Source of the DNA: Clavelina lepadiformis | Taxonomy: Eukaryota; Chordata; Ascidiacea; Aplousobranchia; Clavelinidae | Reading direction: 5' to 3' | NCBI RefSeq assembly: GCF_947623445.1 | Contig: NC_135242.1 | Coordinates: forward strand, 17,174,001-17,238,000 | Length of the DNA stretch: 64,000 nucleotides | Shown: in pieces, positions 1 to 29,405 of the stretch | Layout of the letters: the number at the start of each line of letters is the position of its first letter | How positions within the stretch are numbered: position 1 is the first letter of the stretch | Made by a program: the position numbers and the translations under genes | Notes under the pieces: model-generated | Seen by the model: only the letters and a program-made list of their open reading frames with translations | Database searches by the model: none | Told to the model about the DNA's origin: nothing

Positions 1-1084
1 CAATATGACTGATAAAAAGTCGATTTGTGCAATACCGATCAGAAGATAAATCCAATTAAGACTGCTATTCTACTGCACATCAAATGAGAAATGGATTTTA
101 CGGCTTCAAGATCAAAGAGACACAACTCAGTTTTCACAGACAAATTAAACAAGGTCTTCGACAGAGTATAGGATGACTTATGCCAAGTAAATGATTCCTT
201 CCATGATAATCAATTTCATTCGCGTTTCTTGTCAGCAAATGTAACCAATACTTTAATGAGGTTGATTTATTTGGATCGGAGTAGATAACAAAAGCAATTA
301 GGTACTGGATACGGTCATGCGTAATTAACTGTGTGCCTCGTGTCAACTGTAGCTAACATTTAACTTGGCCGAGATACAATGGCGATACTCCTAACTTATC
401 ACCGTAAGTAATTTCAAGCTTGCAGCAAACAAATCACCCGTTCGAAAACTATACTAAGAACTTTTCATAAAAGTGATGATATATAAAACGGCATACAAAT
501 GAACTCGCTGCTGTAACCTACTAATGTTTGTTTAAAAATTCTTTCCACATTGGCAGTAGACGTTGATTTTGATAAAGTTCTTGGCCATTTCATGTCCTTA
601 TCGATCACGTGTCTTACATTTAACATTGACAAAAAATGTCGAATTTTTATCTCTTCAAAATTTTCTAAGAAGCATGTTTTTCGACCTCTGTTTGAAGTAT
701 AAACCGCTGTATGTTTTTGTATTTAACAGTGTAAAAATCAAAAAAGCGCTCCAATTGTTGAGCGTAGGCTATACGGTACAAAAATTCCCGATATATGTGT
801 TAGATCCCGAGGTGCGTGTTAACATGCTATACAAATGTTGTGAACTAGTGAAAGGTGATTAAAAAAATAGCAAATGTAAGAATTTCCTGCACATAATATT
901 CCAATTAATTTCAAGTACCTAACAACTCTTTTCCCACTACAAAAATTGCTAATCATGCAAAATTACGCTGATCTAAAAGAAAAGTAAAAAAACCAAAACG
1001 ATTTTTCAGTGATACATGCGGAAGATCATGAGAGTAAATGTTGTTAGTGCAAACCGAAAACCCAAAGGCGTTGCCCATACTTAC

Positions 1085-4000
1085 AACGTGTTGAGATTCC
1101 ACATTCCCTGAAAAGTGGAGGAAGGGATGTTGCGAATCCGATTGAATCTTAAATCCCTGCAAAATCGAGGTTAACTTCTAAGCTTTCAACTTTCAACAGA
1201 TTTCTTTAGGGATTGCTTTCTGTTAACAAGTCGCCTAACCACTGATTTTATCAAAGATACTGTATAATCAGTAGTATCTTGATGTGTTTTTTTTCGCGAC
1301 GCTTAGCAAGCCGTGAAACGACTGAAAGCTCAGTAGCTCACCAAACATAGAAATGTGAAGGGAAAAGTAGCACAAGTTGCTTGTAACCATGTCTGTCATC
1401 AGGCAAGTGATAACAAATTAGGTTACATGAACAATTTCTGTTCAGTAAAATGAATACAAAGAGTTCAGGATTTCTTTATCGTATATGCAATAAAAAGATG
1501 GAACCTGGTAGCCTGCTGTTTACAGTATGAATCTATACCTGTAAAATCTCATTTGTGTTCTCATGTGGCTATGAATGCAACATAATACAAAATGTTTGGT
1601 TTTGTTCAAACCCTCCTTTCGTTTTACGATATCTTCATTTCTGTAATTTTCATAAGTTAACAGAATACCAAACTCGGCGCTCCCTAGCGCAACTTGATAA
1701 ACCAAGAAGCTCTGATGTGAGCGATACGTAACTTCGTAAAAAAACGTTTAATTTAATATACTTATTCACAAACTTACAGAAGACAAAAGAAATTACAGAT
1801 TAATAAGAAAGTGTCAAAGTTTCCTATAACGACATGAAATTTCTGATTTCCATCGTACTATCGGTAACCCGTATCACAGTCCAATACTCGTAAAAACAAG
1901 CAGGAAATTGGGGCGGCAAAACGGTTCAAAAATTTACCTGAAAAAGGAATGCAAAGGCCAGCAGACCTAAAGCAATGCGCTGCCGTTATAATTATCTCGT
2001 ATACCGGAACCCGGCTTTGCTTTCATGATAGCTCAAAGAAAATATTAATTCAAAGCAAGAAAGTTATACTGTACAGTAGTTGGTGATGGTTTTCTGCTGG
2101 TTAGGAGCGGCATCATGTCCCAATTGAGATTTGCGCCTTTATGCTGTATACCGCTCTGCAACGTAACACTGAGCCTTGGTTTGTTTCACACTTTCCCATA
2201 GATAGTGCAAAATGTTTCAAAGGTAAAAGCTTCATTAAATTTTTTGCTCTAGAGTTGCCCAACCATTTGAGGTTTAGAATCGCTGTGTAAAATAACCGCA
2301 ACGACAAGACTTTGTAGTCATACAAAGCCCGGAATCCTGTTTTTCTCGTGTTACTAATATTTTCAGAAAACTGTGTTTTTGTGTGAGCAAACAAGTTGTT
2401 ATATCAAGCAACAAGTCCATTTTTTGAAGATGAAAAATTTCTGTAACACCAGATTATCATTGATGAAAAATTGAAAAAATTTCCATTTCCATTCATTTTT
2501 TTCTTTTAAATAAATAACCATGACAACAAGGTATAACAATCACTTATATGTGCGAATGTTGATGTGTTTCACTTGACCTGTTAATCATTCCTCACTAAGC
2601 TATAGGGAAGGGTTTCATTCAATTGCTAATACGCGTGCAAAGAGACCAGAAGTCTACTTGTACAATTAACATACCGCGCCGCTGACACCTTATCTTCGGT
2701 TTCCTTCACGTTTGTATAGGTGGTGCATTATCTTAATCAAAGTGTATCTTTTCTTTTCACTTTATGGGTCATCATCAAGTATTATATGGATGAATCTTAG
2801 CCAAGGGCATATCTCGGAAAGTGATGGTTACAAATTGCTTATTTAGATAACAAGCCACAGTTAAACAACCTTAAACATATGCGTAAGTCAACCAGGGTTG
2901 ACTGGCGGACAAGTTTCTAAGATGGGTACAAGAGATCACGCTTGACCAAACACAAATAGGTCTTCAGCAGTACAAGTGTAGAAAACATGTGGATAGGCCT
3001 ATTATATGTTTTAGATAAATAATTATTAATTTATGTTTTGCAAAAATTAATTATCTAAACTCTAAACAATGCTGGTTGAAGAAAAAAATAGTGGATTTGA
3101 ATTTTTAAACGACTCGACATTATTTTAATAGCAACAAAGAGCACCATAATCATAAAAGGCGTACACCTAATTTTCGGTGCATACTTAAAGTCTAAAATAA
3201 TAGAAAACCAAGTGAATTGGTTTTCAGTGTTCTAAATATTTGGATCGTTACAACATTTGCAGTTGTTACATCTTCACCAAGCAATTATATAAATAAGTAC
3301 ACTTTATGTTTATGGCAATAGCTCACTGTATATGTGGTTACATCTTACGATAAAAAGTCGGTACATAGATCGGTGCTAACTTCAACCAGATACCAAGATG
3401 CAACAGGGCTAAACGCTGTCAAAAACAAATCGAGAAATTCCTTGTATTACATCGACCGTGTATGCACCAACAAGGAAATGTGCACAAACAGAAGCCTTTT
3501 AATTAAAAGTTATTTCCGTCAAAAACGGTGAATGTAAATAACGTGTTCAGATTGCCCTGTGAGCATAAAAGTGTTATTGCTAAAGGTTTAGCTTAATTGT
3601 ATTTACAAATACGTTTACGTGATACCGTAACAGATTAATGGCCAAAAGTTGCGTAAAGTAAGCGTCCCTATTATCATTCCACATCGTCAGTGTTCTCCCT
3701 TTCAGGGGTTATAAAAATTACAATAACCAAACTGCACCTCTATTACATTTATTTCCGCCTGCAAACTCGGGTCAATTTTCAGCTTCGTAAGTGGCTTATT
3801 TGTTTGCCAGCAATATCTTTGGCGTTAGCAGAACTTGTTTATGTCTATTCGTAAGGAAGCGTTTTAGTGGCTCGTCTTCGTTATTATTTGACACGATAAG
3901 ATAATGAAAGTTACGACTGGTATATTTACTGAACCTACATTTTGACCGTTTTATGGAAAAAATAAATATTTATATGTTGGCATAGACAGGTTTAAACAGT

Positions 4001-4727
4001 TCGTGCCTCTGCAGAACGCCCCCTTTTAAGAGGCATGAATTTCGACGTAGTTTATATCACGTTACCAATCGCAAAAGTGGATTGCGTTAGTCACACACAA
4101 CACAAGTACACATTGTATAAAGCACACCATAAACAGTCGATTACAAAAACGTAAAGTGAATAGACCTAGTATAATTCATACTTAGCTACAGCAGATGTGA
4201 AAGATAACAGTACTGTAGTTGTGTTGAAATTAAAAGGAGATGAAAGTGGCAGACGTGAGCTACTACAGCAAGAAACAAGGACCAACGAAGCGTGAAAGAT
4301 ATTGACTTAGCTAGGGTTGATTTTAATCCACTTAGGTGTAGAACGCTTGAGTCCTGCGTTGGGCAATTGCAGTGTGGCTTTGGAATCAGAACGGGAAATG
4401 GAACATTTCTAACGAGATGACAATTTGTGCCAATGGCCTAAGTTAATACCATTAAAATAACAGTAGTCAAAAACACAAAAAACACGTTACTTACAATATC
4501 CTTGTTTCAGGTGGAACCCGAGGAATATGATCCAGTCCAAGATGCATACATCGTACAGTTGTAATGAAGCATAAACATCCACTTGGACACATCCGCGAAC
4601 CGATTCGTCTTTGAGCAACCGCCTTTCTTTCGGAGAGACTTGTCAACAAAATCCAAGTTGTTACCACAAGCATTACGGTTAGATAATGACTTCTTCCCAT
4701 GCTGGTTCCGCTTTTTGAAATTTGCAA
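1085..4727 (-). CDS. Peroxidasin-like, exons 1-2 only (copy 1, continues left of window)
   Basis: Exon 1 is 4727..4495 and exon 2 is 1156..1085 (72 bp); both end in GTAAGT donors, phase 2. Exon 1 starts with a 10-residue polar stretch, a hydrophobic signal segment (about residues 17-30) and a cysteine-rich LRR N-cap with CPSGCLCF. Exon 2 is one leucine-rich repeat, DLRFNRIRNIPSSTF, matching the first LRR of animal peroxidasins. Peroxidasin is a secreted haem peroxidase that forms sulfilimine crosslinks in collagen IV of basement membranes; its LRR part mediates extracellular contacts. The remaining exons would lie left of position 1, so whether this copy is complete cannot be seen. Met10 is an alternative start. 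The N-terminal assignment rests on homology to the better covered copy 2. Confidence 0.85.
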
Positions 4728-5922
4728 GGATTTAAAATGTGAAATGCAAGTGCATTACAACCAGAATTCCAAAAAGAGGAAAAGCTTATAATTTGCTATG
4801 TTGTTTTTGACAAAGTATCGTGCAGCAAAGTAAAAGCCTACTTAATTATCACGGGTAGCGGACCAGCACGCCGCCCTGCGCAAATAACAACGTCGAAATT
4901 ACATCAATTGTTATGTTCCTTTTAAGGCACTTCGAAAAATAACACGCCTCGCTCTGTAACGTCACACCTTAGAAGTAGGTTGCTAACTTCATTGAACTTC
5001 ACAAAACTCTCTCTCCCCGTAACAACAGAAAAAAGAGTAAAACTAAACTGTTTAAGGCCCTCGTGGCTTATTACCTTTAAGTCAATGCTTTTTAGGTTGT
5101 ATCCAAAAGCAAAGAGAGCTGTAAAAGTACCAAAATCCGAGCAATTAAGTTCTTTAACAACCCCTGCACGAACACAGCCTTTTGACTTCATCTGACCGAA
5201 TCCAGGCTATAGTCTAACTATTGTTGATCAATTTTACACTAACTGCGTATCTTAAGTTTTATCGTTGTTCGTGTAAATGAGACTAGACATTACGTCACAC
5301 TCCTCTATTACCTGCCCTGCCAAGAGCGCGAAATCAGACTAGCCGTAACATTTCCTGTCTCCCTGTTTCGCGGCGTCCGAACAAAGAATACTGTACCTTC
5401 GTTAGTGGCTATCAGACAGGTTATACGATTTTTTTGCGCATTTATCAGCACAGCGCGCTTGTCTGCCATGAGCAAGTTGAAGCAATAGCGACCCACAACG
5501 GCACTGTCGTCCAGTAATGGCTATTTATTCCGTAATAATATTTTCGCAAGACGAAAAGCGAAAACGCGTATAGATATACTGTACCCACAATTACATGACC
5601 CAACCACACACGAGGCAGCAGCAAATGTTAAAATGTTTCAATGATTCCAATGTCTAGCATCAGAGTTGTAAACGGGCCTTACACTTTTAACCCGAACGCG
5701 CAAATTTATTTAAAGTCTAAATTAGGCCCGATAGTTAGATTTATTGAATGAATCTAAGTTATTTTTCGAGGTTATTGTTTTCTGTGTAGCGCTTTACTCT
5801 CTGGAGAAGGTTTGTAGCACTTTGCGCTCATGCACTGTAAAGAAAGTAAAACTACGACGTAAATATGGCAGAGTGTGAGTAAGCTTATATATAAATTCAG
5901 TCCTAACTTTTTTAAAACTTAA

Positions 5923-6355
5923 GGAGCCGTCAAAGACTTAAAACTAAGATCTCTATGATTTCGGACGTCCTACGTAGGGCTTTAAAAAAACATGTTTAGA
6001 CCAATCAGAAGGCGGCATGGTTGGTGTTGTTTTCTAGCCTATAGGAATTGCCCCATCAGTTGGCGTGCTTCAATGTCCCAGGTCGCGTGCAGAATTCGGC
6101 TAAAAGTAACATGAAAGTAGCTAAAAAAAATTTTTAGACCAAACATTCTAGTGTTTTTTGGGCCTCTTTTAAAAAAGTTTGAATCATGGTTTTTTCATGG
6201 AATTTTATGGAATGGTAGTTCAAAGCATACTAAATTGACATGCAAAATTTCAGAGAGCCTCAAGGAGGATTTTTGAGTAATCAGTCTTTTAGTAAATTCA
6301 CTGTATAATAAAACAAAGAAAGATTTTAATGCATTTTTTGGTGTTTGACGCCTCC
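5923..6355 (+). mobile_element. TTAA-flanked MITE, family A (copy 1, left)
   Basis: A 433-bp non-coding element with inverted ends GGAGGCGTCAAACACC (left end degenerate: GGAGCCGTCAAAG). The left flank is TTAA and the right is TAGA, a decayed TTAA. The interior is clearly the reverse complement of the element at 11836-12281. TTAA target duplications suggest mobilisation by a piggyBac-type transposase, but the terminal sequence is not one I can assign. Confidence 0.75.
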
Positions 6356-7335
6356 TAGAAAGCCTAAACCCGAACCCGACCAGAAAAGCTCGGCCCGACT
6401 TTCAACTTTCTCTTGCATTTTAGGATATAGTGTTGAGAGCTTGAGTTAATTTTGGTAAAAGTATCCAACAGGCCTATAACAAAAATATACAAATCACCAA
6501 AATTGCGTAGTTACAATTCTTAATCTTTGGCTTGCATTATTCCTGCGTTAGGATAAGCGTCCGGTAAAGCGTTACTTTTTGCCCAAAATAAAATTGTTGA
6601 TGACATTACATGCATTATATTTGGATTGAGAAAGCAAGACAATTAGGTGATGTCCGTCGCGCTGATTTCACAAAGACCGTCAGTAGTAGGCCTAGAATCC
6701 GGTTAATATAATAAACCACACATTATACTGTAGGACCAACCGCGTTTTATGACCATTTCGGTGCGGTCCCGAATGTCGCCATATAAAATTCGTTTTCTAT
6801 TGCCAGTCTTCAGATATTATGACCACATTTGCCATCTCTTTCAAGTTTTTCTCTTGATTTTTCGTGTCAGTTATAAAAAGTAACACTCATAATTGTTCGA
6901 CGTGTATTATCAATTCCACTATTGACATCTACTTTGTTGCTGTTTAATGTTTATGAAGTATATAGTAAATCGATATTTTTGTCATTTCCTTCCCTAATGT
7001 ATCGATTCTGGTGTGGTTATACGATACTAGAGCAGCTTCGATTGTTGTGACAATTGGGATATCATGACCAAAAAGGTCTGATATCCAAGGTGGTCATAAA
7101 AAGTCGAGCGAGCTGGTCTATAACCGCTGTCTGTCCAACATAAAGTATAATAAAATATTCTGTTGTGTTAGCTAATTTTAGTATGTAATAAGCCTTACGA
7201 ACAACGCCCTCCGCACAACAAGATAAGTCAAAATTAATATCACTTAACAACAACTTAGGCAACGACAACACAACTCGGCTGACTGCATAAACTATGAAAC
7301 GTCGCAGACGAAAAACGGTAACTGCGATACTCTGT

Positions 7336-7341
7336 TTTATT
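7336..7341 (-). other. Poly(A) signal AATAAA, carboxypeptidase copy 1
   Basis: AATAAA on the minus strand lies about 40 bp beyond the TAA stop at 7381, a normal spacing for a short 3' UTR. The same hexamer is kept in copy 2. Confidence 0.6.
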
Positions 7342-7380
7342 TCATTACGTATGCGTTAATATTGCCAGCTCTTTGACCAC

Positions 7381-10300
7381 TTATGTGTTGGTTATGGCTT
7401 CTTCAGCCAACATAATCATGGCTTGAAACATTTCTTGGCATGTTCCATCGATCTGTGTTAAGTCAAAATTACCTCTGAAACGTCAATCCGAAAAAAATCG
7501 TTGTATGCACAAACATTACCAAGAAAGCATCTAGGCCACTATAGCTTTAAGAATAAATAAAAAGGCTTCATAATGAATAGGCCTACCTGTGACTCTGGCA
7601 ACAAGAAACCATATTTTCCCGTGTCACGAAGCTCAATGGTGTAGGAAAGTGGAACACCCATTTGATACGCCCAGTCCTTGGAACCGCCGGATACAAGATC
7701 TACAATAAAGCCGCGTAGTAGGCTATGGCTTAGCAATATGTGTTGCAACAATTCTGAAAAACAATATTTTGCCTATAGTTTCACAGACAACGAAAAGGGT
7801 TGTCGTTTGTTAATGTCACCACTAACACATAGATTCGTAGCCCGGTCCAAAAGTATATATTTTGCTTGTGGTTTGTTGAATTGCGCTAGCTGCTCTTGAT
7901 GACACATCATTCTGAAAAACGTTGCATATGATTTCATCTATTTAGTTGTGTGTGAAATGTACATCAAACGTACGCATTTTACAATGCTCCAAACCAAGAA
8001 AATACCAGTTGAGCCGCGTTTTCGGTGTCTTCGTAAGCATAAGAGTAAGGATACACAAAAACCTGACTGTAGCTGTGGAATGCGATGTAGCCCTGAACAA
8101 ATATTGCATAAGAGTTATTGTGATTGTTATAGACATCTGGGAAATGACGCCTAATGCTTAAAATAGTTACAAGTTTTTCTGTTCATTTAATTTTACTTTT
8201 GCAGCTGAGCCCTCCAACAGCATAAAGCAATTATGCGACTATTTTTGTGACTTATTCCGCTATTCGGCAAATATAACAATCGTAGGGGCAGTTGGTAATA
8301 CATTAAATTATTTACGATAGCGAGCAAATAACAAAAATCCCAAAACTTTTTGTTGCCGTCAGAATTAGTTTACCTTTAAATAGGCTTACCATACGTCCCG
8401 TTTTAGCCGGGACAGTCCCGCTTTTAAAGGCTTTGTCCCGGCGTCCCGGTCAGTCAACTAAAAGTCCCGCTTTGGTATTTACTGAGCCAGCATTGCCCTA
8501 CACTACACGGATATTAGCATGATGTGATTGGTCTGTTTAGCCAACTTGCTGAAAAGCAATACTCGATGCGTGTTCTTGTTTCGTTGTGTTAAATGTGAAA
8601 TAGTTGTTACGTCATTGTAGCGGGTAATTGGTCCAGTAGTGAGTTGATTGTTAGCGCATTCGCTTGTTCAGTAATAGTAGGCTAGGAGGAGGAGATGATC
8701 TTTTTGCAGTTAGGTTATTGAAAGAACTTATTTCGTACGATACCGTTACTTGTTTGCATTTTCTTCTGCAAAAACCATTTGAATGTGAAAGCCCTTATCA
8801 CCTGCAAAATTAAAACTGACTTTTCCTGCTGTGATTTTTATGAGAAAATAAAGTCGAATATAGACTTCTGGGAGAAAGTAGGCTACAGAAAAGTCTACAG
8901 AAAAGTATGATTGGACGATTATGTAAATTTACAAATGCTTGAACATTGTTTTGTTTCCTAGTAAAATCCATTATTTTAGTTTTTCTTGGTGTCTTACTAC
9001 TTCAGTTGTCCCTGACGATAGGAATCCAAAATAGTCTCATACTTCTAGTAAAATATGAATTATGAACCACATTTATCTGATAAGGCTCGTTGTTCTGAAG
9101 CGTCCCGCTTTTCAATCACAAAAATATGGTAAGCCTACCTTTAAAGTCGTTCAAATGGCAGTGCAGCCCGGATAAACGCCAGAAAATTAAGTTTGCAATA
9201 AAGTCAATATTTGAATTAAACCAAAATGCAGTAAATTAATTTCAATAAACCAATAAATTTCAAATATCGTATAAAAGGGATAACACCGAATCTTAATATC
9301 ATCCAAATCGGCATAGATTTGAACGTACTCGTATTTCAGCAACACATACTTTGATTCTACTTTGGATACCCTCCGTGTTTGATGTATTTTTTTTCATTGA
9401 TTTTTGGATGAAACACATATGTGTGAAGCATTTATAGTTAACCTCACCTGGATATTTCCCTTGTATTTTCTTATGATGTCAGATAAAGCTTTCACCACTG
9501 GTTCGGACTCGACAGATGGGCCACAATACGTGTTGCTGCAGGGTTCGGTCGAAGCACCCTCGCCGCTCCAGTTAATATCAAAGTTTCGGTTTGCATCAAC
9601 CCCAGTGCAAAATGTATCATACTTTGATCTTGTCTTACGCCACATGCGATCCTAATAAAAGAACGTATGATATTTATTAAATTGATATAGACTTATAGAA
9701 ATAAAGCGTCGCCATTTATGTATTTTTTAAGTTTTATATGCAGGTCTATCTACAGTATAAGTCGATATCGAAGGCAAGTCTTTGTTTCACTAGTGTCGCT
9801 TGCAGCTCATTAACGTAAAATTAAAATGTTAACTAATACGACAAAACGAATATTTAATTACAGTATAAATTTTCCTTGTTTGAGGATCAGGTTAATGGTA
9901 AAAACTCTATAAAATAAAGTTAATTTTGTGGTATGTTTACGTAAAATTGTTCTAGATATGCATATTGCATATATGTTAATGTAAAAGTAAAATTTTTTCA
10001 TGCACTTACATTTGCCCAAGTGTATTCGTAGCCGTCTACGTTAAGGAGAGGTATAATCATCCACGTCATTTCGTCCATCATGCGGGTTACTTGTGGGTCG
10101 ACGCCATATTGCGATAACATCTTCAAAAGTTTTTAATTTTGCAAAAATGCACAATACATCATGCAATAGCCTAAAGGCTAAATAAAGAATTGCAATTTCA
10201 GGGGAGAAACTGTTAAGTCATACAAAACTCCAAGAAAGCGAATCAATGGAACCTAACCCGATTGATGAAGCACTGGCAAAATGCAGGTGAAATCCATTCT

Positions 10301-11376
10301 CTTGCGTGAACACCACAGTCAATGAGAAATATCGGCTTATCTGTTGATTTTCCGATGGTAAGCATATCAACATTTCGTCTTTCTGTTGATGTGGCAAAAA
10401 AACTTTTTCGAGCCAAATTTGGGTACTGATTCGCTGTATCCGCTATCCATTGTTGTATCTTTCAAAACACAAAAGCAGATATTAGAATAGCTAGCCTACC
10501 TATACACAGCAAAAGCGAAAAAGGTAACATTCCTACACTACCTCATCATAAGTGTGATAAACATTATAATCATAACTTCCATTCTTTGACCCCCTCGTTT
10601 GCTTTAGGTCGAGTTGCTCATCAATCAATTGTTGAAGATTGGCGATTTTCACCTGTAAATATATGTAAAAAACTGATAGCAAACGGATGAGAGTTGATTC
10701 TCTTGTACAGATATCAAAGAAATATTTTGCTGCATTTGCTTGATGTTAAAATACCTCATAGTCCATTTTCTGTTCTTGCAACTTCATTTTGATGTTTCCC
10801 AATACAGCGCTTTAATTCAAAAGTTAAGAAGATTAATGGTGACCCGCGATATCAATCACCTGTTTGATAGATCTTATTTAGAAGTTCGTTGTTACCTGGA
10901 GAACCTTACGTCAACTTTCTCGTTAATTCTCACGCTCGTTGCGTCATCGGGACTCCAAAAGTCGACCTATGAAATAAAATTGCATTGTTTCTGAATCTCG
11001 GGGTATTTTTTTAAAGTAAATAAAAGTTAATAAATTAAAGAATTAAAGCTTTAATTGTTCATTATTAAAAAAGATTATTGCCTTCATCTTACTATATTGT
11101 TATCATTTTCCAGGTCTTGAATAAAACTTAGGTGTTCTGGTGTCGTGGGATAAAGAGTAAGCACCTGATGCCTGTGTTTGCAAATTACAAAAAGCATTTG
11201 AAGAAATTGAGACTGCAAAGACAAAAATCTTTTCTATAGTTGATTTTTAACCTAACGCTAATTATTATTAATGTAAACCAAATAACACTCGTAGATAAAA
11301 ATAAAATTCCTTACTTGTCGAATCTCTTATTGGCCACTACTCCCGCTATGAGAACTATTAATGCAAAGAACTTCAT
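7381..11376 (-). CDS. Zinc metallocarboxypeptidase A/B family proenzyme (M14A), copy 1
   Basis: Twelve exons: 11376..11315, 11171..11093, 10966..10896, 10809..10755, 10652..10542, 10458..10258, 10120..10010, 9651..9448, 8092..8006, 7911..7827, 7699..7587, 7452..7381. Together they give 416 codons plus stop, the usual length of pancreatic-type procarboxypeptidases. Residues 1-16 are a signal peptide, followed by an activation domain of about 100 residues. Zinc ligands are His177 and Glu180 (HAREW) and His304 (FHSYSQ). Arg235, Asn251-Arg252 (DANRNFD), Tyr356 and Glu378 (ELRDTG) complete the active site. The position equivalent to residue 255 of bovine carboxypeptidase A is Lys363 (SGGSKDW), where A-type enzymes have Ile and B-type Asp; this predicts cleavage of C-terminal Glu/Asp, as in carboxypeptidase O, which has Arg there. 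A 757-bp hAT-like element sits in intron 8. Secreted, activated by prodomain removal. Confidence 0.95.
8381..9137 (+). mobile_element. hAT-like element, present only in copy 1
   Basis: A 757-bp insertion with inverted ends TAGGCTTACCATA and TATGGTAAGCCTA and a perfect 8-bp target duplication CCTTTAAA (8373-8380 and 9138-9145). Copy 2 has the empty site with a single CCTTTAAA. The left part is rich in GTCCCG/CGGGAC motifs. The 8-bp duplication and short inverted ends are typical of the hAT superfamily. No transposase frame is visible, so it is non-autonomous. It lies in intron 8 of the carboxypeptidase gene. Confidence 0.9.
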
Positions 11377-11437
11377 TGTATTAATCCTGAAAGTCTTACA
11401 ACCCAAGTAAAACTGATTTCTGGTAGAAACCTACATG

Positions 11438-11447
11438 TATATAAATA
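11438..11447 (-). promoter_or_regulatory. Possible TATA box, carboxypeptidase copy 1
   Basis: A TATTTATATA stretch lies 62-71 bp upstream of the start codon at 11376 and is conserved in copy 2 at about 28277-28286. The spacing would put transcription start about 30 bp before the ATG. AT-rich hexamers are common here, so this is only a candidate. Confidence 0.35.
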
Positions 11448-11597
11448 GGAGAATGCTATCTGGATGGACGCAGTCATGAGAATTAACAGATGCAGGAACG
11501 TGCAAAAATAGATCTGATGTTTGTCAATTGGGTGATCTGTGGGCTTCATTGTTGTTTCAGCGTCTCGTTCTGTCAAGGGAAACCTTTCACTTGTAAT

Positions 11598-11768
11598 CAA
11601 TGTTCCCTCTAATTTTTCACGAGTCTGAGCCTCCTATTCCTATCCTGAGTTCCTCTTATTTTCAATTCAGGTTGGATTTTTTTCTTGTGCGCAGCACAGA
11701 TTTTCTGTGCGCGGAGACCGTGTCAGCAGTGCGCATTTGCGCACGCGCGCAGCTTAGAGGGAACATTG
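11598..11768 (+). mobile_element. Short hAT-like MITE, present only in copy 1
   Basis: A 171-bp element with inverted ends CAATGTTCCCTCTAA and TTAGAGGGAACATTG and the 8-bp target duplication CTTGTAAT (11590-11597 and 11769-11776). The interior is GC-rich with alternating GCGC/GTGCGCA motifs near the right end. The site at about 28432 in copy 2 lacks it. It lies about 220 bp upstream of the carboxypeptidase start codon. Confidence 0.9.
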
Positions 11769-11835
11769 CTTGTAATAAAATGCCCGATTTGAAGTTGAAG
11801 CGATCTCTGGCTGTGAAATTACGTGTCTGCGTTAA

Positions 11836-12281
11836 GGAGGCGCCAAACACCAAAAAATGCATTAAAATCTTTGTTTGTTTTATTATACAATGAATTTACT
11901 AAAAGACTGATTACTCGAAAAATCCTTCAAGGGGCTCTCTGGAATTTTGCATGTCAATTTATTATGCTTTGAACTACCATTCCATAAAATTCCGTGAAAA
12001 AACCATGATTCAAACTTTTTTTACAGAGGCCTAAAATAAACACTAAAATTTTTGGTCCAAAAAACCAATTTTAGCTACTTTCATGCTAATTTTTAGCAAA
12101 ATTCTGCACGCGATCTGGGACATTGAAGCACGCCAACTGCTAGGGTAAGTCCCAGGCTAGAAAACAACACCAACCGTGCTGTCTTCTGATTGGTCTAAAC
12201 TCTAAATAAGTTTTTTTAAAGCCCTACGTAGGACGTCCCACAAATTCATAAAGATCTTAGTTTTAGGTGTTTGACGCCTCC
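11836..12281 (-). mobile_element. TTAA-flanked MITE, family A (copy 1, right)
   Basis: A 446-bp element flanked on both sides by intact TTAA (11832-11835 and 12282-12285), with ends GGAGGCGCCAAACACC and GGTGTTTGACGCCTCC. It is in inverted orientation to the one at 5923-6355, so the two bracket the carboxypeptidase gene. It has no coding capacity. Confidence 0.8.
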
Positions 12282-12649
12282 TTAACAAACTCCGCTTGAC
12301 CTGACTTCCATGAAGGCTACGTGTCCTTCTCTGCCACGAATAATTGCAGACAAACAGTATGATAAAAACTTAAACATTTATTCCAACTAGTGAAACATAA
12401 GACATCCTGTGACATTCTGTCAGCACAAGCATTTATATAGCAGGCCCAATGATAATTACATATGAGGAATGCGCCGAGAAATCCGAAAATTAAAACGGAT
12501 TATGCCATGTGAGGCTAAAGGACACGAAGTAAAATTGCAATTAACATGGTAAGTTCTAACGTCGTAAACATTAAATTTAAAACATGTTATATCTTCCTGC
12601 ATTAAATTAACGTCCAGCCTAATTTTTAGATTTCGTCAGCTGTGGACTT
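12282..12649. other. Spacer right of MITE, with candidate poly(A) site
   Basis: No gene is seen. A minus-strand AATAAA at 12377-12382 could end a read-through transcript of the truncated peroxidasin gene, whose stop would be at 12650. The same sequence exists at the right edge of copy 2. Confidence 0.4.
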
Positions 12650-18600: not shown

Positions 18601-21600
18601 ATGAACAATTTCTGTTCAGTAAAATGAATACAAAGAGTTCAGGATTTCTTTATCGTATATGCAATAAAAAGATGGAACCTGGTAGCCTGCTGTTTACAGT
18701 ATGAATCTATACCTGTAAAATCTCATTTGTGTTCTCATGTGGCTATGAATGCAACATAATACAAAATGTTTGGTTTTGTTCAAACCCTCCTTTCGTTTTA
18801 CGATATCTTCATTTCTGTAATTTTCATAAGTTAACAGAATACCAAACTCGGCGCTCCCTAGCGCAACTTGATAAACCAAGAAGCTCTGATGTGAGCGATA
18901 CATAACCTCGTAAAAAAACGTTTAATTTAATATACTTATTCACAAACTTACAGAAGACAAAAGAAATTACAGATTAATAAGAAAGTGTCAAAGTTTCCTA
19001 TAACGACATGAAATTTCTGATTTCCATCGTACTATCGGTAACCCGTATCACAGTCCAATACTCGTAAAAACAAGCAGGAAATTGGGGCGGCAAAACGGTT
19101 CAAAAATTTACCTGAAAAAGGAATGCAAAGGCCAGCAGACCTAAAGCAATGCGCTGCCGTTATAATTATCTCGTATACCGGAACCCGGCTTTGCTTTCAT
19201 GATAGCTCAAAGAAAATATTAATTCAAAGCAAGAAAGTTATACTGTACAGTAGTTGGTGATGGTTTTCTGCTGGTTAGGAGCGGCATCATGTCCCAATTG
19301 AGATTTGCGCCTTTATGCTGTATACCGCTCTGCAACGTAACACTGAGCCTTGGTTTGTTTCACACTTTCCCATAGATAGTGCAAAATGTTTCAAAGGTAA
19401 AAGCTTCATTAAATTTTTTGCTCTAGAGTTGCCCAACCATTTGAGGTTTAGAATCGCTGTGTAAAATAACCGCAACGACAAGACTTTGTAGTCATACAAA
19501 GCCCGGAATCCTGTTTTTCTCGTGTTACTAATATTTTCAGAAAACTGTGTTTTTGTGTGAGCAAACAAGTTGTTATATCAAGCAACAAGTCCATTTTTTG
19601 AAGATGAAAAATTTCTGTAACACCAGATTATCATTGATGAAAAATTGAAAAAATTTCCATTTCCATTCATTTTTTTCTTTTAAATAAATAACCATGACAA
19701 CAAGGTATAACAATCACTTATATGTGCGAATGTTGATGTGTTTCACTTGACCTGTTAATCATTCCTCACTAAGCTATAGGGAAGGGTTTCATTCAATTGC
19801 TAATACGCGTGCAAAGAGACCAGAAGTCTACTTGTACAATTAACATACCGCGCCGCTGACACCTTATCTTCGGTTTCCTTCACGTTTGTATAGGTGGTGC
19901 ATTATCTTAATCAAAGTGTATCTTTTCTTTTCACTTTATGGGTCATCATCAAGTATTATATGGATGAATCTTAGCCAAGGGCATATCTCGGAAAGTGATG
20001 GTTACAAATTGTTTATTTAGATAACAAGCCACAGTTAAACAACCTTAAACATATGCGTAAGTCAACCAGGGTTGACTGGCGGACAAGTTTCTAAGATGGG
20101 TACAAGAGATCACGCTTGACCAAACACAAATAGGTCTTCAGCAGTACAAGTGTAGAAAACATGTGAATAGGCCTATTATATGTTTTAGATAAATAATTAT
20201 TAATTTATGTTTTGCAAAAATTAATTATCTAAACTGTAAACAATGCTGGTTGAAGAAAAAAATAGTGGATTTGAATTTTTAAACGACTCGACATTATTTT
20301 AATAGCAACAAAGAGCACCATAATCATAAAAGGCGTACACCTAATTTTCGGTGCATACTTAAAGTCTAAAATAATAGAAAACCAAGTGAATTGGTTTTCA
20401 GTGTTCTAAATATTTGGATCGTTACAACATTTGCAGTTGTTACATCTTCACCAAGCAATTATATAAATAAGTACACTTTATGTTTATGGCAATAGCTCAC
20501 TGTATATGTGGTTACATCTTACGATAAAAAGTCGGTACATAGATCGGTGCTAACTTCAACCAGATACCAAGATGCAACAGGGCTAAACGCTGTCAAAAAC
20601 AAATCGAGAAATTCCTTGTATTACATCGACCGTGTATGCACCAACAAGGAAATGTGCACAAACAGAAGCCTTTTAATTAAAAATTATTTCCGTCAAAAAC
20701 GGTGAATGTAAATAACGTGTTCAGATTGCCCTGTGAGCATAAAAGTGTTATTGCTAAAGGTTTAGCTTAATTGTATTTACAAATACGTTTACGTGATACC
20801 GTAACAGATTAATGGCCAAAAGTTGCGTAAAGTAAGCGTCCCTATTATCATTCCACATCGTCAGTGTTCTCCCTTTCAGGGGTTATAAAAATTACAATAA
20901 CCAAACTGCACCTCTATTACATTTATTTCCGCCTGCAAACTCGGGTCAATTTTCAGCTTCGTAAGTGGCTTATTTGTTTGCCAGCAATATCTTTGGCGTT
21001 AGCAGAACTTGTTTGTGTCTATTCGTATTCTGGTAAGGAAGCGTTTTAGTGGCTCGTCTTCGTTATTATTTGACACGATAAGATAATGAAAGTTACGACT
21101 GGTATATTTACTGAACCTACATTTTGACCGTTTTATGGAAAAAATAAATATTTATATGTTGGCATAGACAGGTTTAAACAGTTCGTGCCTCTGCAGAACG
21201 CCCCCTTTTAAGAGGCATGAATTTCGACGTAGTTTATATCACGTTACCAATCGCAAAAGTGGATTGCGTTAGTCACACACAACACAAGTACACATTGTAT
21301 AAAGCACACCATAAACAGTCGATTACAAAAACGTAAAGTGAATAGACCTAGTATAATTCATACTTAGCTACAGCAGATGTGAAAGATAACAGTACTGTAG
21401 TTGTGTTGAAATTAAAAGGAGATGAAAGTGGCAGACGTGAGCTACTACAGCAAGAAACAAGGACCAACGAAGCGTGAAAGATATTGACTTAGCTAGGGTT
21501 GATTTTAATCCACTTAGGTGTAGAACGCTTGAGTCCTGCGTTGGGCAATTGCAGTGTGGCTTTGGAATCAGAACGGGAAATGGAACATTTCTAACGAGAT

Positions 21601-21909
21601 GACAATTTGTGCCAATGGCCTAAGTTAATACCATTAAAATAACAGTAGTCAAAAACACAAAAAACACGTTACTTACAATATCCTTGTTTCAGGTGGAACC
21701 CGAGGAATATGATCCAGTCCAAGATGCATACATCGTACAGTTGTAATGAAGCATAAACATCCACTTGGACACATCCGCGAACCGATTCGTCTTTGAGCAA
21801 CCGCCTTTCTTTCGGAGAGACTTGTCAACAAAATCCAAGTTGTTACCACAAGCATTACGGTTAGATAATGACTTCTTCCCATGCTGGTTCCGCTTTTTGA
21901 AATTTGCAA
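12650..21909 (-). CDS. Peroxidasin-like, LRR half only, 3'-truncated (copy 2)
   Basis: Seven exons: 21909..21677 (signal peptide, LRR N-cap), then five 72-bp LRR exons at 18330..18259, 16237..16166, 14820..14749, 14564..14493 and 13314..13243, then the LRR C-cap exon from 13022. The LRRs carry peroxidasin hallmarks: LLNNNHI, YLYKNKIQTI, YLHDNEIRTL, FLHNNMLATL, and the cap begins RLDSNKLQCDCHLIWLSKLL. All LRR exons share phase 2. A GTGAGC donor after 12841 should lead to Ig and peroxidase exons, but none exists before the duplication junction at 12746. If the donor is not used, the frame stays open across the junction to a stop at 12650, giving 321 codons with about 63 non-homologous C-terminal residues. 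So this copy encodes at most a secreted LRR protein without peroxidase. Exon calls are strong; expression of the read-through form is a guess. Confidence 0.88.
12740..12753. other. Junction between the two duplicated units
   Basis: Position 12746 is the last base that pairs with copy 2 (29405), and 12747 starts sequence found once in the window. The junction lies about 95 bp downstream, in gene sense, of the splice donor ending the peroxidasin LRR C-cap exon, that is inside the intron that should lead to the Ig-domain exons. It can be the breakpoint of a tandem duplication or a mis-join of two haplotype contigs; the sequence alone does not decide. Confidence 0.85.
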
Positions 21910-23104
21910 GGATTTAAAATGTGAAATGCAAGTGCATTACAACCAGAATTCCAAAAAGAGGAAAAGCTTATAATTTGCTATGTTGTTTTTGACAAAGTAT
22001 CGTGCAGCAAAGTAAAAGCCTACTTAATTATCACGGGTAGCGGACCAGCACGCCGCCCTGCGCAAATAACAACGTCGAAATTACATCAATTGTTATGTTC
22101 CTTTTAAGGCACTTCGAAAAATAACACGCCTCGCTCTGTAACGTCACACCTTAGAAGTAGGTTGCTAACTGCATTGAACTTCACAAAACTCTCTCTCCCC
22201 GTAACAACAGAAAAAAGAGTAAAACTAAACTGTTTAAGGCCCTCGTGGCTTATTACCTTTAAGTCAATGCTTTTTAGGTTTTATCCAAAAGCAAAGAGAG
22301 CTGTAAAAGTACCAAAATCCGAGCAATTAAGTTCTTTAACAACCCCTGCACGAACACAGCCTTTTGACTTCATCTGACCGAATCCAGGCTATAGTCTAAC
22401 TATTGTTGATCAATTTTACACTAACTGCGTATCTTAAGTTTTATCGTTGTTCGTGTAAATGAGACTAGACATTACGTCACACTCCTCTATTACCTGCCCT
22501 GCCAAGAGCGCGAAATCAGACTAGCCGTAACATTTCCTGTCTCCCTGTTTCGCGGCGTCCGAACAAAGAATACTGTACCTTCGTTAGTGGCTAACAGACA
22601 GGTTATACGATTTTTTTGCGCATTTATCAGCACAGCGCGCTTGTCTGCCATGAGCAAGTTGAAGCAATAGCGACCCACAACGGCACTGTCGTCCAGTAAT
22701 GGCTATTTATTCCGTAATAATATTTTCGCAAGACGAAAAGCGAAAACGCGTATAGATATACTGTACCCACAATTACATGACCCAACCACACACGAGGCAG
22801 CAGCAAATGTTAAAATGTTTCAATGATTCCAATGTCTTGCATCAGAGTTGTAAACGGGCCTTACACTTTTAACCCGAACGCGCAAATTTATTTAAAGTCT
22901 AAATTAGGCCCGATAGTTAGATTTATTGAATGAATCTAAGTTATTTTTCGAGGTTATTGTTTTCTGTGTAGCGCTTTACTCTCTGGAGAAGGTTTGTAGC
23001 ACTTTGCGCTCATGCACTGTAAAGAAAGTAAAACTACGACGTAAATATGGCAGAGTGTGAGTAAGCTTATATATAAATTCAGTCCTAACTTTTTTAAAAC
23101 TTAA

Positions 23105-23537
23105 GGAGCCGTCAAAGACTTAAAACTAAGATCTCTATGATTTCGGACGTCCTACGTAGGGCTTTAAAAAAACATGTTTAGACCAATCAGAAGGCGGCAT
23201 GGTTGGTGTTGTTTTCTAGCCTATAGGAATTGCCCCATCAGTTGGCGTGCTTCAATGTCCCAGGTCGCGTGCAGAATTCGGCTAAAAGTAACATGAAAGT
23301 AGCTAAAAAAAATTTTTAGACCAAACATTCTAGTGTTTTTTGGGCCTCTTTTAAAAAAGTTTGAATCATGGTTTTTTCATGGAATTTTATGGAATGGTAG
23401 TTCAAAGCATACTAAATTGACATGCAAAATTTCAGAGAGCCTCAAGGAGGATTTTTGAGTAATCAGTCTTTTAGTAAATTCACTGTATAATAAAACAAAG
23501 AAAGATTTTAATGCATTTTTTGGTGTTTGACGCCTCC
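23105..23537 (+). mobile_element. TTAA-flanked MITE, family A (copy 2, left)
   Basis: The duplicate of 5923-6355 with the same degenerate left end and the same right flank. It arose by the segmental duplication, not by a new insertion. Confidence 0.75.
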
Positions 23538-24514
23538 TAGAAAGCCTAAACCCGAACCCGACCAGAAAAGCCCGGCCCGACTTTCAACTTTCTCTTGCAT
23601 TTTAGGATATAGTGTTGAGAGCTTGAGTTAATTTTGGTAAAAGTATCCAACAGGCCTATAACAAAAATATACAAATCACCAAAATTGCGTAGTTACAATT
23701 CTTAATCTTTGGCTTGCATTATTCCTGCGTTAGGATAAGCGTCCGGTAAAGCGTTACTTTTTGCCCAAAATAAAATTGTTGATGACATTACATGCATTAT
23801 ATTTGGATTGAGAAAGCAAGACAATTAGGTGATGTCCGTCGCGCTGATTTCACAAAGACCGTCAGTAGCAGGCCTAGAATCCGGTTAATATAATAAACCA
23901 CACATTATACTGTAGGACCAACCGCGTTTTATGACCATTTCGGTGCGGTCCCGAATGTCGCCATATAAAATTCGTTTTCTATTGCCAGTCTTCAGATATT
24001 ATGACCACATTTGCCATCTCTTTCAAGTTTTTCTCTTGATTTTTCGTGTCAGTTATAAAAAGTAACACTCATAATTGTTCGACGTGTATTATCAATTCCA
24101 CTATTGACATCTACTTTGTTGCTGTTTAATGTTTATGAAGTATATAGTAAATCGATATTTTTGTCATTTCCTTCCCTAATGTATCGATTCTGGTGTGGTT
24201 ATACGATACTAGAGCAGCTTCGATTGTTGTGACAATTGGGATATCATGACCAAAAAGGTCTGATATCCAAGGTGGTCATAAAAAGCCGAGCGAGGTCTAT
24301 AACCGCTGTCTGTCCAACATAAAGTATAATAAAATATTCTGTTGTGTTAGCTAATTTTAGTATGTAATAAGCCTTACGAACAACGCCCTCCGCACAACAA
24401 GATAAGTCAAAATTAATATCACTTAACAACAACTTAGGCAACGACAACACAACTCGGCTGACTGCATAAACTGTGAAACGTCGCAGACGAAAAACGGTAA
24501 CTGCGATACTCTGT

Positions 24515-24520
24515 TTTATT
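24515..24520 (-). other. Poly(A) signal AATAAA, carboxypeptidase copy 2
   Basis: The hexamer lies about 40 bp beyond the stop at 24560 and corresponds to 7336-7341 in copy 1. Confidence 0.6.
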
Positions 24521-24559
24521 TCATTACGTATGCGTTAATATTGCCAGCTCTTTGACCAC

Positions 24560-27500
24560 TTATGTGTTGGTTATGGCTTCTTCAGCCAACACAATCATGG
24601 CTTGAAACATTTCTTGGCATGTTCCATCGATCTGTGTTAAGTCAAAATTACCTCTGAAACGTCAATCCGAAAAAAATCGTTGTATGCACAAACATTACCA
24701 AGAAAGCATCTAGGCCACTATAGCTTTAAGAATAAATAAAAAGGCTTCATAATGAATAGGCCTACCTGTGACTCTGGCAACAAGAAACCATATTTTCCCG
24801 TGTCACGAAGCTCAATGGTGTAGGAAAGTGGAACACCCATTTGATACGCCCAGTCCTTGGAACCGCCGGATACAAGATCTACAATAAAGCCGCGTAGTAG
24901 GCTATGGCTTAACAATATGTGTTGCAACAATTCTGAAAAACAATATTTTGCCTATAGTTTCACAGACAACGAAAAGGGTTGTCGTTTGTTAATGTCACCA
25001 CTAACACATAGATTCGTAGCCCGGTCCAAAAGTATATATTTTGCTTGTGGTTTGTTGAATTGCGTTAGCTGCTCTTGATGACACATCATTCTGAAAAACG
25101 TTGCATATGATTTCATCTATTTAGTTGTGTGTGAAATGTACATCAAACGTACGCATTTTACAATGCTCCAAACCAAGAAAATACCAGTTGAGCCGCGTTT
25201 TCGGTGTCTTCGTAAGCATAAGAGTAAGGATACACAAAAACCTGACTGTAGCTGTGGAATGCGATGTAGCCCTGAACAAATATTGCATAAGAGTTATTGT
25301 GATTGTTATAGACATCTGGGAAATGACGCCTAATGCTTAAAATAGTTACAAGTTTTTCTGTTCATTTAATTTTACTTTTGCAGCTGAGCCCTCCAACAGC
25401 ATAAAGCAATTATGCGACTATTTTTGTGACTTATTCCGCTATTCGGCAAATATAACAATCGTAGGGGCAGTTGGTAATACATTAAATTATTTACGATAGC
25501 GAGCAAATAACAAAAAACCCAAAACTTTTTGTTGCCGTCAGAATTAGTTTACCTTTAAAGTCGTTCAAATGGCAGTGCAGCCCGGATAAACGCCAGAAAA
25601 TTAAGTTTGCAATAAAGTCAATATTTGAATTAAACCAAAATGCAGTAAATTAATTTCAATAAACCAATAAATTTCAAATATCGTATAAAAGGGATAACAC
25701 CGAATCTTAATATCATCCAAATCGGCATAGATTTGAACGTACTCGTATTTCAGCAACACATACTTTGATTCTACTTTGGATACCCTCCGTGTTTGATGTA
25801 TTTTTTTCATCGATTTTTGGATGAAACACATATGTGTGAAGCATTTATAGTTAACCTCACCTGGATATTTCCCTTGTATTTTCTTATGATGTCAGATAAA
25901 GCTTTCACCACTGGTTCGGACTCGACAGATGGGCCACAATACGTGTTGCTGCAGGGTTCGGTCGAAGCACCCTCGCCGCTCCAGTTAATATCAAAGTTTC
26001 GGTTTGCATCAACCCCAGTGCAAAATGTATCATACTTTGATCTTGTCTTACGCCACATGCGATCCTAATAAAAGAACGTATGATATTTATTAAATTGATA
26101 TAGACTTATAGAAATAAAGCGTCGCCATTTATGTATTTTTTAAGTTTTATATGCAGGCCTATCTACAGTATAAGTCGATATCGAAGGCAAGTCTTTGTTT
26201 CACTAGTGTCGCTTGCAGCTCATTAACGTAAAATTAAAATGCTAACTAATACGACAAAACGAATATTTAATTACAGTATAAGTTTTCCTTGTTTGAGGAT
26301 CAGGTTAATGGTAAAAACTCTATAAAATAAAGTTAAGTTTGTGGTATGTTTACGTAAAATTGTTCTAGATATGCATATTGCATATATGTTAATGTAAAAG
26401 TAAAATTTTTTCATGCACTTACATTTGCCCAAGTGTATTCGTAGCCGTCTACGTTAAGGAGAGGTATAATCATCCACGTCATTTCGTCCATCATGCGGGT
26501 TACTTGTGGGTCGACGCCATATTGCGATAACATCTTCAAAAGTTTTTAATTTTGCAAAAATGCACAATACATCATGCAATAGCCCAGACGTGGGCAAACT
26601 GCGGCTCGCGAGCCACATGCGGCTCTCCGGCAAGTTTTTTGTGGCTCTTCTAGTCGAATCGTAAAATTCCAAAAAATGTAAAGGCTACCAAGAGTACCGT
26701 TTATGAAAGTTTCTGTGTAGTTTTTCTTTATTTAGGCCAGGATTTCGTTTATGACGTAACACTAGACATCGATTCCGACATTATTTTCAGGTATAGAGTC
26801 TATACTCTATGGCAAAGGTTGTCAAAATGCACCTCACCAACATGTTTTTATGGGTCTTTTAGTTAAAAAGTAATATCCCAAAATGACTACTAATAGTATA
26901 ATGACCAAATTGACAATCATTACTGATTTTGCGGCTCGCTGGTGTTTATATTTTTCCGCAAGTGACTCTTTCATTGAACAAATTTGCCCACCCCTGCAAT
27001 AGCCTAAAGGCTAAATAAAGAATTGCAATTTCGCGGGAGAAACTGTTAAGTCATACAAAACTCCAAGAAAGCGAATCAACGGAACCTAACCCGATTGATG
27101 AAGCACTGGCAAAATGCAGGTGAAATCCATTCTCTTGCGTGAACACCACAGTCAATGAGAAAAATCGGCTTATCTGTTGATTTTCCGATGGTAAGCATAT
27201 CAACATTTCGTCCTTCTGTTGATGTGGCAAAAAAACTTTTTCGAGCCAAATTTGGGTACTGATTTGCCGTATCCGCTATCCATTGTTGTATCTTTCAAAA
27301 CACAAAAGCAGAAATTAAAATAGTTCAACCTGCCTATACACAGCAAAAGCGGAAAAGGTAACATTCCTACGCTACCTCATCATAAGTGTGATAAACATTA
27401 TAATCATAACTTCCATTCTTTGACGCCCTCATTTGTTTTAGGTCGAGTTGCTCATCAATCAATTGTTGAAGATTGGCGATTTTCACCTGTAAATAGGCTA

Positions 27501-28215
27501 TATGTAAAAAACTGATAGCAAACGGATGAGAGTTGATTCTCTTGTACAGATATCAAAGAAATATTTTGCTGCATTTGCTTGATGTTAAAATACCTCATAG
27601 TCCATTTTCTGTTCTTGCAACTTCATTTTGATGTTTCCCAATACAGCGCTATAATTCAAAATTTAAGAAGATTAATGGTGGCCCGCGATATCAATCACCT
27701 GTTTGATAGGTCTTATTTAGAAGTTCGTTGTTACCTGGAGAACCTTACGTCAACTTTCTCGTTAATTTTCACACTCGTTGCGTCATCGGGACTCCAAAAG
27801 TCGACCTATGAAATAAAATTACATTGTTTCTGAATCTCGGAGTATTTTTTTAAAGTAAATAAAAGTTAATAAATTAAAAAATTAAAGCTTTAATTGTTCA
27901 TAATTAAAAAAGATTATTGCCTTCATCTTACTATATTGTTATCATTTTCCAGGTCTTGAATAAAACTTAGGTGTTCTGGTGTCGTGGGATAAAGAGTAAG
28001 CACCTGATGCCTGTGTTTGCAAATTACAAAAAGCATTTGAAGAAATTGAGACTGGAAAGACAAAAATCTTTTCTATAGTTGATTTTTAACCTAACGCTAA
28101 TAATTATTAATGTAAACCAAATAACACTCGTAGATAAAAATAAAATTCCTTACTTGTCGAATCTCTTGTTGGCCACTACTCCCGCTATGAGAACTATTAA
28201 TGCAAAGAACTTCAT
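24560..28215 (-). CDS. Zinc metallocarboxypeptidase A/B family proenzyme (M14A), copy 2
   Basis: The same 12-exon structure as the copy at 7381-11376: 28215..28154, 28010..27932, 27805..27735, 27648..27594, 27486..27376, 27291..27091, 26533..26423, 26064..25861, 25271..25185, 25090..25006, 24878..24766, 24631..24560. All splice sites are kept and the reading frame is intact, 416 codons. The catalytic set and Lys363 are unchanged. Amino-acid changes that I can read against copy 1 are few and lie outside the active site: Arg to Lys in the propeptide (exon 3), Thr to Met and Gly to Ala in exon 5, Arg to Gly in exon 6, Ser to Asn in exon 10. A private 412-bp hAT-like insertion (26585-26996) interrupts intron 6 without touching exons. 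Both copies look functional; if the duplication is real this is a recent gene pair. Confidence 0.95.
26585..26996 (+). mobile_element. hAT-like MITE, present only in copy 2
   Basis: A 412-bp insertion with ends CAGACGTGGGCAAA and TTTGCCCACCCCTG and a perfect 8-bp target duplication CAATAGCC (26577-26584 and 26997-27004). Copy 1 has the empty site near 10166. CAGGGGTGGGCAAA-type ends followed by GCGGCTCGCGAGCC are characteristic of animal hAT elements. It has no coding capacity and lies in intron 6 of the second carboxypeptidase gene. Confidence 0.92.
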
Positions 28216-28494
28216 TGTATTAATCCTGAAAGTCTTACAACCCAAGTAAAACTGATTTCTGGTAGAAACCTACATGTATATAAATAGGAAAATGCTATCT
28301 GGATGGACGCAGTCATGAGAATTGACAGATGCAGGAACGTGCAAAAATAGATCTGATGTTTGTCAATTGGGTGATCTGTGGGCTTCATTGTTGATTCAGC
28401 GTCTCGTTCTGTCAAGGGAAACCTTTCACTTTTATAAAATGCCCGATTTGAAGTTGAAGCGATCTCTGGCTGTGAAATTACGTGTCTGCGTTAA

Positions 28495-28940
28495 GGAGGC
28501 GCCAAACACCAAAAAATGCATTAAAATCTTTGTTTGTTTTATTATACAATGAATTTACTAAAAGACTGATTACTCGAAAAATCCTTCATGGGGCTCTCTG
28601 GAATTTTGCATGTCAATTTATTATGCTTTGAACTACCATTCCATAAAATTCCGTGAAAAAACCATGATTCAAACTTTTTTTACAGAGGCCTAAAAGAAAC
28701 ACTAGAATTTTTGGTCCAAAAAAACAATTTTAGCTACTTTCATGCTAATTTTTAGCAAAATTCTGCACGCGACCTGGGACATTGAAGCACGCCAACTGCT
28801 AGGGTAAGTCCCAGGCTAGAAAACAACACCAACCGTGCTGTCTTCTGATTGGTCTAAACTCTAAATAGGTTTTTTTAAAGCCCTACGTAGGACGTCCAAC
28901 AAATTCATAAAGATCTTAGTTTTAGGTGTTTGACGCCTCC
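28495..28940 (-). mobile_element. TTAA-flanked MITE, family A (copy 2, right)
   Basis: The duplicate of 11836-12281. The left flank TTAA is intact and the right has become TCAA. Confidence 0.78.
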
Positions 28941-29405
28941 TCAACAAACTCCGCTTGACCTGACTTCCATGAAGGCTACGTGTCCTTCTCTGCCACGAAT
29001 AATTGCAGACAAACAGTATGATAAAAACTTAAACATTTATTCCAACTAGTGAAACATAAGACATCCTGTGACATTCTGTCAGCACAAGCATTTATATAGC
29101 AGGCCCAATGATAATTACATATGAGGAATGCGCCGAGAAATCCGAAAATTAAAACGGATTATGCCATGTGAGGCTAAAGGACACGAAGTAAAATTGCAAT
29201 TAATATGGTAAGTTCTAACGTCGTAAATATTAAATTTAAAACATGTTATATCTTCTTGTATTAAATTAACGTCCAGCCTAATTTTTAGATTTCGTCAGCT
29301 GTGGACTTTCAATAGCCCAGAATATTTTTATTCGTTACACTTTGTTTTGCATGATAATTGTTTGGGTCATGGGCCACGTGGCGGCCAGGCAAGTGATGTT
29401 CTGGG

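Follow-up and report, generated by a model that had tools for sequence, protein, structure and literature searches.

A tandem duplication with a markedly uneven divergence between its copies is described here from a 64,000-nucleotide stretch of the ascidian Clavelina lepadiformis (C3:17174001-17238000, referred to as the window; coordinates are those of the window, and negative ones lie upstream of it). A unit of about 17.2 kb, containing a whole procarboxypeptidase gene and the 5' part of a peroxidasin gene, is present twice, head to tail and without any spacer. The duplication is very probably real, judging from the assembled sequence, and to the fuller history, in which its outer ends were later replaced by crossovers with divergent single-copy haplotypes, we would give an even chance. 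If the duplication is taken as real, the crossover history becomes slightly better than an even bet.

The layout was obtained by self-alignment of the window plus 40 kb upstream. The preliminary description of this DNA had reported two 12-kb blocks in the same orientation, 17 kb apart; the direct duplication stands, whereas the block size and the spacer do not, as copy 1 starts 4,439 bases upstream of the window and the copies abut, which rules out separate blocks split by a 17-kb spacer. No N was present across the 114 kb around the duplication, and its left and right flanks did not align to one another. A third copy was not detected in searches of the whole assembly (209,060,895 bases, 95 contigs) with the copy-1 parts 1-3000 and 9136-12746; in the latter search the best 40 of 1,316 candidates were scored, and a further 40 rows corresponded to a dispersed repeat within the unit. 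The published assembly, as given in an excerpt of PMC10884593, comprises 210.1 Mb in 102 scaffolds and nine chromosomes, with 28.79 Mb for chromosome 1 and 25.74 Mb for chromosome 3; the GC (guanine plus cytosine) content of the latter is 35.5%, and that of the window is 35.7%.

The two breakpoints share TTCTGGG exactly and nine of ten bases over ATCTTCTGGG. At random pairs of positions from the same 114 kb, seven or more exact bases were shared in 0.000835 of 200,000 draws, so that the breakpoints share sequence beyond chance, as in a microhomology-mediated rearrangement. As the junction carries the left-breakpoint base at the position that differs, the switch would lie within the AT before that base, or anywhere within TTCTGGG if the base changed later. 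The absence of N at the junction, together with the microhomology, favours a real duplication, and reads presumably span the junction. The head-to-tail arrangement, the 7-10 shared breakpoint bases and the combination of one whole gene with one cut gene are common to microhomology-mediated tandem segmental duplications, from which this event shows no essential difference, its mutational mechanism being the one suggested by a single junction.

Copies 1 and 2 differ by 104 substitutions over 16,220 aligned bases, and the unevenness of their distribution is beyond chance: the dispersion index in 500-base windows was 4.49, compared with a mean of 1.01 and a maximum of 2.44 in 2,000 permutations. 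Very uneven divergence had been reported before, and the earlier figures were closely reproduced, with 7/3,970 (0.18%) at copy-1 positions 31-4000 for the approximately 0.2% of the first 4 kb, 24/830 (2.9%) at 10171-11000 for the approximately 3% near 10.2-11.0 kb, and 15/965 (1.55%) at 11775-12739 for the approximately 1.5% at 11.8-12.7 kb. The general view of this locus as a direct duplication of recent origin whose divergence is mosaic is supported.

A two-segment fit placed a break at 10189/10190, with 0.40% and 2.07% on its two sides (Bayesian information criterion, BIC, 1224.1), and a three-segment fit (BIC 1228.4) gave a high-low-high profile, as detailed in the table below. With rounder boundaries, picked after viewing the data, 31/4460 bases differed at -4432..30, 20/8901 at 31..9700 and 53/2859 at 9701..12739, with Fisher test values of P = 7e-5 for left versus middle and P = 4e-18 for right versus middle, the left divergent side being statistically the weaker one. 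Coding constraint was ruled out as the source of the unevenness, since non-coding sequence alone, cut at 30 and 9700, showed the same order (0.73% left, 0.22% middle and 1.98% right). Gene conversion across the left part, as suggested earlier, does not give the best account of this profile, where low divergence is confined to a single interval of about 9-10 kb inside the unit, flanked to the left and right by more divergent sequence.

The three large indels between the copies represent inserted transposons, which have inverted ends and are flanked by target duplications of 8 bp, and each of the 757-, 412- and 171-bp elements has many further copies on C1-C9 (40 best of 323, 628 and 403 candidates, respectively). 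Among the matches listed for the 757-bp element, the closest is 100% identical to it, and therefore this insertion looks recent. The 412-bp insert shows the 8-bp target duplication, the terminal inverted repeats and the many genomic copies of a hAT-like element, a label that we take from its ends and target length. In a different region, C1:3225109-3336729, five equal-score copies of the 757-bp family lie within 112 kb among the matches listed, which suggests another recent tandem duplication there.

The favoured history would begin with a duplication at a microhomology of 7-10 bp, through template switching or end joining for instance. The first Ig exon of peroxidasin would thereby have been joined to sequence upstream of the adjacent carboxypeptidase gene, and the outcome would be a second carboxypeptidase gene, intact, and a peroxidasin truncated at its 3' end. 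Meiotic crossovers with divergent single-copy chromosomes would then have replaced the outer left of copy 1 and the outer right of copy 2, the junction staying in place. With the outer ends swapped in this way, a single interior core would show just the drift accumulated after the duplication (0.23%), and the ends would differ as alleles do (0.71% and 1.88%). Crossovers of this kind always leave a single unreplaced interval, in line with the high-low-high profile. In a toy simulation, the crossover model gave layouts near the observed core edges in 0.0026-0.0061 of the cases, conversion with short tracts (means 300 and 1,000) gave the observed layout in at most 0.0005, and conversion with long tracts (means 3,000 and 8,000) gave it in no more than 0.0045. 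As layouts were accepted by similar but not identical criteria in the two models, the simulation is taken only as an argument against short conversion tracts. The interplay of crossover and conversion in duplications has been modelled in PMC4132178, the available section of which does not address this locus.

A survey for other tandem duplications covered one block of 200, later 210 kb (C1:10.00-10.21 Mb; n = 1, which gives no base rate) and revealed, at C1:10081761-10210000 (L016-L028), a tandem array of 60-kb units with 99.8% identity between neighbours and with older related pieces at 90-97% to its left. In the outermost (left) near-identical copy, 81 differences fell in the first 2 kb (about 4%) versus 24 in the other 61 kb compared. 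Therefore, a recent tandem duplication with such a divergent outer edge is not unique to the C3 locus.

Several points weigh against the crossover history. The edge of the C1 array could equally come from unequal exchange alone in an array of three or more units. The BIC slightly prefers two segments over three, so that the left boundary is weak. The simulated mean replaced fraction was uniform along the unit (0.63-0.64), that is, the model predicts one core and not the positions of its edges, and its simulated advantage over long-tract conversion (0.0061 versus 0.0045) is negligible. The description of the end divergence as allelic is unproven; a literature search gave no heterozygosity figure for C. 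lepadiformis, one of its matches, PMC12373286, concerning lancelets in the text available. Of three pieces of unplaced contigs (C12, C25 and C45), the two that were searched (C12 and C45) provided no usable haplotig, the C12 piece being a dispersed repeat and the C45 piece matching only itself. Finally, the chromosomes of the assembly used are slightly shorter than the published ones, so that gap N may have been removed.

It is unlikely, on balance, that the duplication is older, with copies about 2% diverged, and that its 9-kb core was made uniform by ectopic gene conversion or by unequal exchange between them. The two-segment change point adjoins the empty site of the 412-bp insert (10164-10171), and this copy-2 transposon may have acted as a stop for conversion at the right edge of the core; moreover, long tracts do reach the layout in the simulated fraction given above, and near-identity extends over many kilobases between units of the C1 array. 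However, short tracts hardly ever gave the layout, and the 757-bp transposon, found within the core in one copy only, would have arrived after homogenisation there or escaped it. Also rather unlikely is a duplication between two homologous chromosomes, in which the copies would have differed from birth and the unevenness would reflect how coalescence time ordinarily varies along a pair of haplotypes: the mosaic profile and the copy-specific transposons resemble ordinary allelic differences, but a 9-kb near-identical haplotype stretch would be needed inside the unit by chance.

An assembly artefact, with two haplotypes of a single locus set side by side, is very unlikely: the divergence is of a size possible for alleles, older assemblies carried 4-16% of falsely duplicated sequence, mainly divergent haplotypes (excerpt of PMC9516828), and the published assembly was treated with purge_dups and manual removal of 9 haplotypic duplications, but the junction is free of N and lies at a microhomology rarely met by chance, the flanks cannot be aligned to each other, one breakpoint is within an exon, and the published assembly, for which an alternate haplotype is deposited, was built with hifiasm from HiFi reads at 117-fold coverage and shows 0.6% duplicated BUSCOs (same excerpt of PMC10884593). 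The joining of recombinant haplotypes invoked in the preliminary description is disfavoured as an assembly error by the absence of N, the microhomology and the low BUSCO duplication, whereas an exchange between polymorphic haplotypes as a biological event is likely. An allele-specific tandem duplication on one contig, described in the excerpt of PMC9516828, likewise has its copies abutting without N; the present one was analysed as assembled sequence.

Table. Coordinates of the duplication, its divergence segments, insertions and genes (window positions; negative values lie upstream)
Feature	Position	Strand	Details
Copy 1 of the unit	-4439..12746 (in window 1..12746)	+	Self-alignment; start at C3:17169561, upstream of the window
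Copy 2 of the unit	12737..29405	+	Self-alignment; abuts copy 1 head to tail
Duplication junction ATCTTCTGGG	12737..12746	+	Equals left breakpoint -4439..-4430; 9/10 versus right breakpoint
Right breakpoint ATGTTCTGGG	29396-29405	+	9/10 bases in common with ATCTTCTGGG
Left segment	-4432..-230		30/4200 = 0.71%; three-segment fit
Core segment (about 9.2 kb aligned)	-229..9739		21/9200 = 0.23%; three-segment fit
Divergent right block of copy 1	9740..12739	+	53/2820 = 1.88% versus copy 2; three-segment fit
757-bp transposon, copy 1 only	8381..9137	+	Ends TAGGCTTACCATA..TATGGTAAGCCTA; 8-bp target duplication CCTTTAAA; copy 2 site empty
412-bp hAT-like insert, copy 2 only	26585..26996	+	Ends CAGACGTGGGCAAA..TTTGCCCACCCCTG; 8-bp target duplication CAATAGCC; copy 1 site empty
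171-bp insert resembling a miniature inverted-repeat transposable element (MITE), copy 1 only	11598..11768	+	Ends CAATGTTCCCTCTAA..TTAGAGGGAACATTG; 8-bp target duplication CTTGTAAT; copy 2 empty site slightly altered
Procarboxypeptidase, copy 1	7381..11376	-	12 coding exons, 416 amino acids, intact
Procarboxypeptidase, copy 2	24560..28215	-	12 coding exons, 416 amino acids; activation peptide, M14 domain, signal peptide by eye
5' part of peroxidasin, copy 1	1..4700	-	Ig and An_peroxidase exons follow to the left, outside the window
3'-truncated peroxidasin, copy 2	12650..21882	-	LRRNT, LRRs, LRRCT, first Ig1 codons, then far-end unit sequence; stop 12652-12650

All exons found in the unit are on the minus strand. 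The procarboxypeptidase gene lies entirely within the unit and is intact in both copies, with 11/11 introns of the GT..AG type. Its product has the activation peptide (Propep_M14, 3e-17) and the complete M14 domain (Peptidase_M14, 8e-98 over profile positions 1-285 of 286) of A/B-type M14 procarboxypeptidases in Pfam, and is collinear with procarboxypeptidase B 1kwm over the full length (E 1e-109); NCBIfam gave no match for it. The copies differ in 12 codons, six with amino-acid and six with silent changes, giving P = 0.061 against neutrality for the non-synonymous 6/12 and P = 0.016 for the 6/14 obtained with peroxidasin included. As the exons are intact and the non-synonymous share is low, the two genes resemble functional alleles or paralogues more than copies in decay.

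At the specificity position, which we take to be residue 255, both copies have Lys in GGSKDWAY (exon 24766-24878 and 7587-7699, minus strand) compared with Asp in GGSDDWAY of 1kwm. The enzyme thus lacks the Asp255 of CPB enzymes, and a basic specificity residue is reported for 52/74 CPO genes; by the same excerpted source (PMC9925722), the Lys predicts a preference for acidic C-terminal residues. The tandem CPO duplications of fish and Xenopus mentioned there also concern A/B-type M14 enzymes with a basic specificity residue, whereas here the activation peptide is kept, the host is a tunicate and a neighbouring gene was cut by the event. Further M14 exons were found elsewhere in the assembly; those nearest to the locus, at C3:4.46 Mb, show 45-60% identity per exon.

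Seven peroxidasin exons lie in the unit (LRRNT, LRRs and LRRCT, with a signal peptide by eye), and the copies differ there by two silent and no amino-acid changes. In copy 1 the Ig and haem peroxidase domains come next in the left flank, so that LRRNT, LRRs, LRRCT, I-set Ig and animal haem peroxidase follow on one strand, an order that we take to be that of peroxidasin; LRRCT was called by PDB matches only, and LRRNT was under the Pfam cut-off (19.1 and 21.2 versus 25.8). No C-terminal VWC domain was listed in the domain scan of L004, with L005 and L006 outside that scan. In the same left flank, a cluster of short repeats with 85-91% identity was observed at -9407..-8332.

The junction falls inside the first Ig exon, where copy 1 reads ..TPYIATNPEDLQILQGHSARLVC.. 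and copy 2 reads ..TPYIATNPEDHLPGRHVAHDPNNYHAKQSVRNKNILGY and then the stop codon, with an AATAAA at 12382. The predicted copy-2 product would have 288 amino acids if the 72-base stretch 12840-12769 is spliced out and 24 more if it is not. Pfam gives LRR families only for the 288-residue product, which has neither the Ig nor the peroxidase domains. In-frame splicing of the LRRCT donor of peroxidasin to exon 2 of the carboxypeptidase was rejected, as the phases differ (748 versus 62 coding bases before the sites). A 249-residue peroxidasin N-terminus gave matches of at most 45% identity outside the locus (102 matches), and no second peroxidasin locus was seen in this whole-genome protein search, in which 150 of 266 candidates were scored. 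Among the literature matches listed, no partial peroxidasin duplication appeared in titles or abstract openings, which is no proof of absence.

It is tempting, though doubtful, to regard the duplication as a segregating structural allele that gave rise to a new gene, which would express a secreted, LRR-only peroxidasin ectodomain (288 amino acids, with a new 28-residue far-end tail) from a peroxidasin promoter, beside the full enzyme and a second carboxypeptidase locus, its outer ends still exchanging with single-copy haplotypes. If this were true, both the age of a young duplicate and its recombination history could be read from the one interior core. More generally, it is in young tandem duplications with sequenced breakpoints and mosaic divergence that the effects of crossover with single-copy chromosomes can be distinguished from those of conversion between copies, and this one has three copy-specific transposon insertions besides its core and its two outer blocks. 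A single event copied one gene whole and trimmed its neighbour to a plausible secreted fragment. The event is of an ordinary kind, clearly displayed, and its interest is modest; as the assembly contains at least one further tandem array of recent origin, it also calls for caution in gene counts.

As for the remaining content, the plus-strand frames of 12747-30002 gave no Pfam match, and no tRNA was found by ARAGORN (bacterial code). Just to the right of the duplication, a 370-amino-acid open frame at 30704-31816 (plus strand) appears by eye to be of the WD40 type. A small second direct repeat, of about 430 bp and 93% identity, lies at 52200-52631 and 53499-53929. Within copy 1, an element of about 450 bp forms an inverted pair, 88% alike, at 5919-6356 and 11835-12285, and at least 38 more near-full-length places of this family were found in the assembly.

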